From positions 1-32,822 of the forward strand of contig CAMFBT010000003.1 in the NCBI GenBank assembly GCA_945948625.1: DNA of 32,822 nucleotides. Direction: 5' to 3'. Of this stretch, positions 2,577-7,139 are shown piece by piece (within the stretch, counting starts at the first letter, position 1; every line of letters begins with the position of its first letter). This stretch comes from an uncultured Mycoplasmatota bacterium (GTDB lineage: Bacteria > Bacillota_I > Bacilli_A > RF39 > UBA660). The position numbers and the translations under genes are program-made. The notes under the pieces are model-generated. The model was not told the origin of the DNA. It searched no databases and saw only the letters and a list, made by a program, of their open reading frames with translations.

Positions 2577-3818
2577 TTACACCTCAATATAATAATCAGT
2601 TTTATATAACTTATCTTTAATTTTATAATAAATAGTATATTTACCTTTTAATCCATTTAAATTAATATATTTAATATCTTTGACTTCATATATTCTTTTA
2701 TCAAAAAGTTTATCAAATATAACATAAATAGTATCATCTTCTTCATTATTTATAGTAATTCTATTTACATCCATACTAATTTCAATAGAAGAAATATCCC
2801 CAGTAGTATATTTGATAATAGAAATATTCTTATCACTAATCTTAGTACTATCAAGTTTTCCATACCTAATACCTGGAACAATTTTATAATTAGAAACATT
2901 ATCATAAAAATTAAAAACATTATTTGGTTTATTATAAGTACATTCTTCATATTCATTATCAGAATTAATCATATAATATTTATCATCATTACCTAAAATA
3001 ATACCACTATCTTTAGCAGAAATATAATTATAATTATTATTAATATATTTTGAAGTAATAGTACCAGTTTGACTATCTATAACTAAAATATCTTTTGATA
3101 TTGCATAAATATTACCTTCATTATAATCACTATAACCATAATAACCATCACTAAGTAAATATTCATTAAATATTTTACCAAGCAAATTCATTTTATAAAT
3201 AGAAATAGAAGTACCATTATCATTATAACTATCACTACCCAAAATAATATTATCATCATAAACAGTAATATTGCCATAATATTTTTTATTAAAATACCAT
3301 CTAACATTACCTCTATCATCAACTGCATAAGGATAATTATCATTATAAAAAGTAAAATTACCTAAAGAAGTACTAATATTACCAAAATCATCAGGAAGAG
3401 GATCAGTCTTAATATTAATATTTTTTTCTTTTCCCTCGCCTTTAATTAAAATAGTATTATTATAATTAGGATATAAACCATATATAGGAATCATATGATA
3501 TTTACTTCTTTCAAAAGTATAACTTATATTGCAATTTCCTTCCATATCTTTTATACAAATAGATACTTCACTGTAACTATCAGTTTCAAACATAACAATC
3601 GCAGTAAGAGGACTATTACCATAAGGATTAATAATAATATTAGGATTATCAATACTATATCCATATGAAACAAAGTACACTTCCTTATTACTTTGTATAT
3701 CTAGAATATCCCTATCTTTATTAATACTAATATTTCCAGTAACCATATTACATCCTACTATAGTAATAAATAAAATAAATATTATAAATATTAAAATAAA
3801 TATATAACTCTTCTTCAT
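2577..3818 (-). CDS. Lipoprotein with arylsulfotransferase (ASST) N-terminal-like domain and truncated propeller-like region
   Basis: Lipobox-like ...ITIVGC; INPYGNSPLTAIVMFETD and IPIYGLYPNYNNT match the ASST N-domain pattern; AVDDRGNVRWYF follows. Confidence 0.7.
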   Translation of the reverse strand: MKKSYIFILIFIIFILFITIVGCNMVTGNISINKDRDILDIQSNKEVYFVSYGYSIDNPNIIINPYGNSPLTAIVMFETDSYSEVSICIKDMEGNCNISYTFERSKYHMIPIYGLYPNYNNTILIKGEGKEKNINIKTDPLPDDFGNISTSLGNFTFYNDNYPYAVDDRGNVRWYFNKKYYGNITVYDDNIILGSDSYNDNGTSISIYKMNLLGKIFNEYLLSDGYYGYSDYNEGNIYAISKDILVIDSQTGTITSKYINNNYNYISAKDSGIILGNDDKYYMINSDNEYEECTYNKPNNVFNFYDNVSNYKIVPGIRYGKLDSTKISDKNISIIKYTTGDISSIEISMDVNRITINNEEDDTIYVIFDKLFDKRIYEVKDIKYINLNGLKGKYTIYYKIKDKLYKTDYYIEV

Positions 3819-3879
3819 ACTACCACATTATATATTATACTAAAAATAAGCCGAAAAATAAAGGATTTTTCTATATTTT

Positions 3880-3962
3880 ACACTAAGAGCCTAAGGTCTC
3901 TTTAGTGTTTTTTAAAGCCTAAAGTCTTTAAAAAATAATTTTAAGCCAAAGTCTTAAAATTA
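3880..3962. repeat. Three contiguous stem-loops of 28/28/27 nt with shared loop core G-CC(T)AA[A/G]GT-C
   Basis: ACACTAAGAG-CCTAAGGT-CTCTTTAGTG; TTTTTTAAAG-CCTAAAGT-CTTTAAAAAA; TAATTTTAAG-CCAAAGT-CTTAAAATTA. Units 2 and 3 have perfect 10-bp stems; unit 1 has one bulge. Confidence 0.85.
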
Positions 3963-4026: not shown

Positions 4027-4569
4027 ATGAATTTAAAAAAAATAAAAATAATCGCCGTAATTGGAATATTCTTATTATCATTCATATCCCACTTTACTTA
4101 TGAATTATTTCCTAATATCATATTCTCATTCATATTTCCAGTAAATGAAAGTATCTGGGAACATATGAAAATAATATTTACATCAACCCTTATCTATGGA
4201 ATAATAGATTATCTTTTACTAAAAAAATATAAAATAAAATATAATAACTTCCCATTTCAACTATACTTTACTTCCTTAATAGGAATACCTATATATTTAG
4301 TAATATATCTTCCATTATATAAATTACTCGGAGAAAACATGATAATATCCATATCATTATTACTTTTAGTATATATAATAACACAAATAGTAAGTTATAA
4401 CATCCTAAAAGAAAAAAAATTAAAAATCCTAAATATCATAACAATTCCTGTAATATTATTATCATATCTAGGATTCATATATCTAACATATAATCCACCA
4501 CACACATATATTTTCTACGACATAACTAAAGATAAATACAGTATAGATGACTATATTTATCTAGAATAA
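4027..4569 (+). CDS. DUF6512-like integral membrane protein
   Basis: Multiple TM segments, FPVNESIWEHMKIIF motif, and a strong SD (AAGGAGG) upstream. Confidence 0.7.
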   Translation: MNLKKIKIIAVIGIFLLSFISHFTYELFPNIIFSFIFPVNESIWEHMKIIFTSTLIYGIIDYLLLKKYKIKYNNFPFQLYFTSLIGIPIYLVIYLPLYKLLGENMIISISLLLLVYIITQIVSYNILKEKKLKILNIITIPVILLSYLGFIYLTYNPPHTYIFYDITKDKYSIDDYIYLE

Positions 4570-6457: not shown

Positions 6458-7139
6458 TATAATAACCACCTTTCTCAATATCACGAACAAGTCTACCATG
6501 GTCTAATATAATAACTCTCTTTTTCATCCTATCTACAATATCTCTATCATGAGTAGCCATAATAATTGTAGTTCCCATTGCATTAATTTCTTCAAGAACT
6601 TTCATAATTTCCATTGAAGTATCAGGATCCAGATTTCCAGTAGGTTCATCACAAATAAGAAGTTTAGGCTTATTAACAATTGCTCTCGCTATAACAACTC
6701 TTTGTTGCTCTCCACCAGATAATTGATCAGGATATTGTCTAACTTTATTTTTAAGACCTACCAAATCAAGAACTTCAAGAACTCTCTTTCTTATTTCTTT
6801 TTTATCATAACCAAGTACTTCCATGGCAAAAGCTACATTCTCAAATACAGTAAGTTTTGGAAGCAACTTAAAATCCTGAAATACTACTCCCAATTTTCTT
6901 CTCAAGACATATACTTTTCTATTTTTTAATTTTGCAACATTAATACCACCAATAATAATAGACCCTTTATCAGGTTTTTCTTCTCTATATAACATCTTAA
7001 TAAGAGTAGATTTTCCACTACCAGAAGCACCAATTACAAATACAAATTCACCCTTTTTAATACTAAGATTTAAATCATATAAAGCAACAGTACCAGTTTT
7101 ATAAGTCTTTTGAACATCACTAATTCTAATTAACTCCAT
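6444..7139 (-). CDS. ftsE: Cell division ATP-binding protein FtsE
   Basis: Walker A GASGSGKST, signature LSGGEQQRVVIARA, Walker B LLICDEPTGNLD; adjacent to ftsX. Confidence 0.95.
   Translation of the reverse strand: MELIRISDVQKTYKTGTVALYDLNLSIKKGEFVFVIGASGSGKSTLIKMLYREEKPDKGSIIIGGINVAKLKNRKVYVLRRKLGVVFQDFKLLPKLTVFENVAFAMEVLGYDKKEIRKRVLEVLDLVGLKNKVRQYPDQLSGGEQQRVVIARAIVNKPKLLICDEPTGNLDPDTSMEIMKVLEEINAMGTTIIMATHDRDIVDRMKKRVIILDHGRLVRDIEKGGYYNEKC

Follow-up and report, generated by a model that had tools for sequence, protein, structure and literature searches.

The hairpin array at positions 3880–3962 of the window (the whole 32,822-nucleotide stretch analyzed here, from an uncultured Mycoplasmatota bacterium) is one copy of a previously unlisted, genus-restricted family of dispersed hairpin arrays. 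Literature searches turned up no account of arrays of this kind in the bacterial group concerned. With moderate confidence, we read the array as probably being a structure-defined dispersed DNA repeat, similar to REP and double-hairpin elements, which lies in the spacers between transcription units and whose third-hairpin side is prone to rearrangement.

On the plus strand, three abutting hairpins (H1, H2 and H3) lie between a gene for an arylsulfotransferase-like (ASST) protein (2577–3818, minus strand; Pfam PF17425 and PF05935), which is an orthologous neighbor in the genus, and a gene for a DUF6512 protein (4027–4569, plus strand; PF20122). An earlier note on this DNA had described the same three hairpins, and its coordinates and sequences were all exact. 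H2 (3908–3935), for which there is evidence from covariation, has a perfect 10-bp stem and the loop CCTAAAGT (3918–3925), with a C3918·T3925 mismatch, and H3 (3936–3962) has a perfect 10-bp stem and the loop CCAAAGT (3946–3952), with a C3946·T3952 mismatch. H1 (about 3880–3908, loop CCTAAGGT at 3890–3897), read from sequence, is present but imperfect: instead of a clean 10-bp stem, CACTAA pairs with TTAGTG and GAG with CTC only around a one-base T bulge (CACTAA·GAG/CTC·T·TTAGTG). Similarly, the unit length of 28 nt given in the note holds for units 1 and 2, while unit 3, with its 7-nt loop, is 27 nt long. A T-rich tract directly 5′ of H1 (3865–3879, plus strand) is either part of the element or its target, and the A just past H3 (3963, plus strand), which is conserved in 59 of 69 arrays, marks the right edge. 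The T6 that follows unit 1 and also forms the left arm of unit 2 is seen here and is specific to some copies. The additional 7-bp hairpin upstream of H1 (3853–3871, plus strand) was confirmed as described, and its membership in the element is uncertain; an analogue (AAAGnCTT-AAAAT-AAAGnCTTT plus a T-rich stretch) occurs at the polA array (L009) and at the window locus of the congener G010, and most arrays have no such hairpin.

These hairpins are unlikely to be a product of base composition, as the window contains five perfect 10-bp hairpins with a 7–8-nt loop, compared to 0.6 per shuffled window, and one abutting pair of perfect hairpins, compared to none in 20 shuffled windows. The local fold of the array also beats shuffled sequences on both strands (z of −2.35 on the plus and −2.67 on the minus strand). 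We built two covariance models, R1 from 30 single units and R2, a tandem model, from 14 real 55-nt sequences. R1 matches H2 at 42.7 bits (E 1.2e-6) and H3 at 29.6 bits, and R2 gives tandem matches at 3880–3935 and 3908–3962 (E about 1e-11). Searching the window against Rfam gave nothing at the gathering score, and relaxed thresholds gave only chance matches (E 3.2 and 7.8).

The window's own genome (G000; 863 kb scanned, 89% complete) holds many further copies. Allowing up to two mismatches, the loop pattern AAGCCTAARGTCTT occurs at 38 places in this genome compared to 4 for the reversed control, in surroundings that consist of two or three abutting intergenic hairpins with different stems and similar loops. 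R1 finds 60 matches in the same genome and between 1 and 21 in each of ten congeners (those that are named being uncultured Bacillales MAGs, such as UBA3620), with weak scattered matches elsewhere. R2 finds 41 distinct sites in the 863 kb at E below 1e-4, or about one per 21 kb, and arrays were intergenic in 40 of the 42 cases scanned, in a genome that is about 92% coding. All 11 genomes of the genus carry arrays by R2, compared to 0 of 29 other relatives, and R1 has no match among the 190 genomes searched from the rest of the order. When run on 395 genomes sampled across the class, R2 matched two members of the genus and one outsider; the latter is an ordinary terminator matched by chance. 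A viral origin was likewise rejected, the single IMG/VR match (L145) being a chance match. Arrays of two to three units thus recur, with covarying stems and outside any Rfam family, which is what the covariance-model search suggested in the earlier note was meant to establish. The findings that this note had named as speaking against it were the lack of an array in close relatives, the lack of covariation, and a match to a terminator cluster or an Rfam family, and none of these was encountered. The dispersal of the family, its confinement to the genus, its gain or loss from species to species and its polarity go beyond that note.

Across the family, the order on the strand shown is T-rich tract, H1, H2, H3 and A, over 55–85 nt, and some arrays consist of H2 and H3 alone. 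The 10 nt to the left of H1 are 66% T where the left gene is in the sense orientation and 56% T where it is antisense (73 arrays). H1, where recognized, is imperfect in most copies, with Y·Y mismatches 4–5 nt below the loop. Of the conserved loop core initially proposed, the C at the start and the GT at the end hold, while the middle varies freely across other copies; the apex sequence differs even among copies with identical stems. What stays constant in the loop is most readily described as a C·T mismatch above the closing G–C pair, followed by a C–G pair and a short apex, and copies with longer loops extend the inner stem above this same mismatch (CCTATAAAATAGT; CCTACATTTCAGTAGT in L089). 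Among detected copies, 1228 of 1278 stem pairs are Watson–Crick, in a scan that is biased toward good stems.

The mismatches are strand-asymmetric, with 34 Y·Y compared to 4 R·R on the plus strand, which suggests that it is one strand in particular that counts. Read on the minus strand, these mismatches appear as A·G and G·A, and it is conceivable that this strand is transcribed, and that its hairpins with A·G and tandem G·A pairs form a protein-binding RNA array (a CsrB-like sponge or multicopy small RNA). The mismatches of the minus strand are indeed purine–purine (G·A, A·A), of the kind found in structural RNA motifs, the minus strand folds slightly more stably as RNA in 29 of 40 arrays (p 0.005), and the polA copy (L009) is followed by a good terminator on that strand. 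However, terminators are not enriched 3′ of the arrays on the minus strand beyond those of the flanking genes themselves, the orientation of arrays relative to neighboring genes is unbiased, G·T wobbles are more common on the plus strand (9) than on the minus strand (3), individual hairpins can be inverted between orthologous sites (L020 versus L082), and no Rfam family matches, such that we consider this RNA reading unlikely.

Selection on structure together with a conserved loop feature, as initially proposed, is supported by stems that covary over copies and species. In alignment A2, 93.7% of cells pair (62.8% when shuffled) with 92 double changes (25.6 when shuffled), and in alignment A5 the corresponding values are 98.9% (76%) and 50 (11.2). 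These shuffles leave relatedness in, and orthologous sites therefore matter. At the ATPase locus, the H3 arms are TAAATTGAAG/CTTCAATTTA in G000 and TAAATTAGAG/CTCTAATTTA in G006 and G007. Beside a gene for a small coiled-coil protein (starting MEVQ), the arms are TACTTTAGAG/CTCTAAAGTA in G001 and G003 and TAATTTAGAG/CTCTAAATTA in G008, and upstream of rnjA four species have, at the same site, arrays with unrelated yet paired stems. More generally, the position of the array is conserved at parA, rnjA, secA and polC while the stems change. The persistence of arrays at rnjA and parA, together with stems that are intact in nearly all detected copies, points to a function for the host rather than to a purely selfish element, and mutational palindrome correction could also contribute to the covarying stems. 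We note separately that, in the orthologous array at the secA locus, the H3 stem is kept and the loop is inverted, reading CCTGTAGT in G000 (L020, 1285–1312) and ACTTATGG in G006 (L082).

The genes next to the arrays include what we take, from reading their sequences, to be polA, polC, parA, topA, gyrB/parE, secA, uvrA, smc, rnjA, pheT, mutL and proS. Orientation is balanced, with both neighbors in the sense of the array in 13 cases and both antisense in 11. Terminator signals sit where the flanking genes need them, in no fixed relation to the array, and on neither side do the arrays have a terminator of their own in addition to those of the genes around them. The window array lies upstream of both neighbors, ∼60 nt from the ASST-like start and 64 nt from the DUF6512 start, which would fit a cis-regulatory leader or attenuator of either gene. 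The same type of array nevertheless occurs next to about 40 unrelated genes, in either orientation, and five congeners have no array at the orthologous locus although both genes are retained there. With unrelated housekeeping neighbors in either orientation at the 41 sites and no dedicated terminator, leader, attenuator and small RNA roles for the ASST and DUF6512 genes are unsupported, and we regard the cis-regulatory reading as largely refuted and highly improbable.

The same gene context bears on a further reading, in which the arrays mark transcription-unit boundaries, with DNA cruciforms or read-through RNA serving as bidirectional insulators, or as structures that counter read-through or protect 3′ ends, like some functions of REPs. 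Arrays do lie between transcription units and behind terminators of either strand, mostly 9–61 nt past the stop codon of left genes in the sense orientation, and they hold their position at parA, rnjA, secA and polC while their stems change. They are, however, not terminators as such, since the T-tract precedes H1 and an A-tract follows H3, leaving no hairpin with a U-tract on either strand; many neighbors already have a terminator; and most spacers, as well as all related genera, manage without arrays. Overall, we consider a boundary function rather unlikely.

Comparing orthologous sites also provides insight into gain and loss. The DUF6512 gene is kept at the window locus in 11/11 genomes of the genus, and the spacer measures 208 bp with the array in G000, and 85–108 bp without an array in G002, G004, G006, G007 and G009, the five congeners that retain both genes. 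In G003, G008 and G010, this spacer contains a different two-hairpin structure, and the ancestral state is therefore uncertain. This structure (L121 in G003, L133 in G010 and L134 in G008) consists of CCGC-TTT-GGCGG followed by AAAYTAAC-AAA-GTTARTTT behind a T-rich tract, with a compensatory C–G/T–A change between species and no C·T mismatch, and in G003 an AAA ATPase-like gene lies on its right side. At the rnjA locus, arrays are present in G000, G005, G006 and G009 and absent from G002 and G007, and the next gene is common to G006, with the array, and to G002 and G007, without it. Finally, G003 carries near-identical 55-nt copies at unlinked sites, with the similarity stopping at the hairpins. 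These presence/absence differences and near-identical copies support dispersal, although at rnjA and parA the arrays keep their place from one species to the next; the flanks are so AT-rich that target-site duplications are unreadable. As a side observation, two arrays on contig C13 of G005 (L075, at 6974 and 8890) share H3 and more than 30 bp of right flank, and in the one at 6974, H1 is missing along with the greater part of H2, as though a duplication had cut it short.

The two sides of the arrays are not equivalent. Of 40 intergenic arrays of the window's genome, seven come to within 70 bp of where their contig ends, and it is invariably the H3 side that faces the end; the expectation is 0.8 per side for a distance of 250 bp (P 1.6e-5). 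All three pairs of arrays less than 400 bp apart are convergent, with H3 sides facing each other across 11, 57 and 361 bp, as is a fourth pair 2.5 kb apart, the second member of which scored as one atypical unit. In a comparison of gene order, a G000 homologue was found only on the H1 side in 11 arrays and only on the H3 side in 3, a comparison based on open reading frames (ORFs) that is noisy, with small or spurious ORFs inflating the number of missing homologues, and that we use as supporting evidence only. On inspection, for example, the parA array proves to have rnpA on its H3 side in G000 as well as in G006, where a 91-aa ORF intervenes. In G003, a 6.3-kb block lies between two arrays, the first of which separates it from a conserved gene, and a HAD gene comes after the second. 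In G001, this HAD gene stands directly behind the first array; among nine genus genomes searched, it was found only in G001 and G003. Taken together, these observations point to variable DNA next to the H3 edge, as a lead rather than proof, given fragmented MAGs and small ORFs.

We note also that, in the interval between uvrA and an ATPase gene, two facing arrays enclose a Bro-N-like gene. This gene is short in G000 (contig C29, L108, 2109–2611); in G006 (contig C9, L076, 36–2213) it is longer and accompanied by a second ORF, while G007 (L083) has other sequence in its place. The DNA in this interval is cargo between inverted arrays.

In a bolder reading, the arrays would be chromosome-wide, attC-like attachment sites that are read as folded single strands through their C·T/A·G mismatch and tandem hairpins, with a recombinase other than an integron integrase or a RAYT exchanging gene blocks at the H3 edge. 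We consider this improbable. As to enzymes, the genome has only two PF00589 proteins, with best matches to XerD and XerC, and integron models scored far below cutoff against both in this 89% complete genome; neither a tyrosine recombinase nor an integron integrase was retained as a candidate. Mobilization by RAYT was rejected, as PF01797 (Y1_Tnp) is found only in G003 and is absent from G000 and 9/10 congeners. Reverse transcriptase (PF00078) is limited within the genus to G000, G003, G006 and G008, and the one in G000 is stand-alone and unlinked to arrays, and was rejected as mobilizer. None of the enzymes looked for thus fits as the agent of mobilization, which counts against reading the arrays as a dispersed repeat. 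That ORF (L154, contig C16, 307–1806 of the locus) encodes 499 aa and is possibly of the defense type.

Returning to the reading that we favor, that of a structure-defined dispersed repeat, the entity recognized would be a folded single strand (a single-stranded DNA hairpin or an extruded cruciform arm) carrying the C·T mismatch, or A·G on the other strand, rather than the stem sequence. Recognition of shape plus mismatch would leave the stems free to drift by compensatory change. Copies may then spread to, and be tolerated in, T-rich spacers behind terminators or before promoters, through an enzyme acting in trans, while the H3 edge would be a preferred junction for strain-specific DNA, such that the arrays could act as rearrangement boundaries. 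What normally defines palindromic repeats in bacteria is a stem sequence that is conserved and, in those cases that are understood, a RAYT. The present family, from an uncultured small-genome lineage of Bacilli, keeps only a shape and one mismatch, and sequence-based repeat finders would therefore largely miss it. It also offers a clean comparative system, in which 11 genomes provide orthologous sites that have or lack an array, as well as sites where the stems differ, for studying how palindromes are maintained and whether arrays of this kind steer the rearrangement of genomes.

How the arrays relate to known systems depends on the property compared. The XerCD dif site measures 28 bp, with a center of 6–8 bp between arms of about 10 bp, dimensions that the units of the arrays share, but the arms of the arrays are variable and perfectly palindromic, and no consistent XerD arm is found in them. 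A separate dif-like 28-bp site, ACTTCCTATAATTAATATTATGTTAAGT, lies at position 9855 of contig C11 of G000, with 4 mismatches and ∼1.7 kb from a xerD-like gene. Pneumococcal BOX elements are modular intergenic repeats with a variable number of modules, as in the arrays, but BOX modules are sequence-conserved, which sets them apart by description. Integron attC sites are recognized as folded single strands with unpaired bases, and are polar sites adjoining variable DNA (PMC3053210); the arrays appear to share the latter feature and perhaps the former, but differ in having no enrichment of the GTTRRRY/RYYYAAC core (1/40 arrays, compared to 35/200 random windows), no integron integrase and no clustering in cassette arrays, and in consisting of a few short hairpins where attC has a single long one.

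REP, BIME and REPIN elements are 20–40-nt intergenic palindromes in tens of copies and inverted pairs, of which the CGTC-type REPs likewise have no known transposase (PMC3116915, PMC3733652). The arrays resemble them as short palindromes in many intergenic copies, between unidirectional as well as convergent genes, but carry a T-tract on the left and an A on the right in place of a GTAG/CGTC tag, vary in stem sequence, form tandem head-to-tail units where REPs are single, and have no RAYT in the window's genome or 9/10 congeners. Mitochondrial double-hairpin elements, and the Repetitive Hairpin-forming Elements (RHE) of sponges, keep their stem sequence and vary their loops within a genome (PMC2800124). 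Like the arrays, they are dispersed, intergenic, in some cases AT-rich, and composed of single, double or triple tandem hairpins, and they are lineage-specific, differ between close relatives and are under pressure to keep the hairpin (PMC2800124). The arrays likewise place two or three tandem hairpins in dispersed spacers, and the combination of conserved stem and variable loop holds for the copies of G003, though not for those of the window's own genome. They differ in residing on a bacterial chromosome rather than in an organelle, in stems that diverge by compensatory change, and in a fixed mismatch. By the tests made, the arrays belong to none of REP/REPIN, attC or dif, nor would they clearly belong to double-hairpin/RHE; their nearest counterparts would appear to be mitochondrial double-hairpin elements in anatomy, REP/REPIN in distribution and, perhaps, attC in the logic of recognition.
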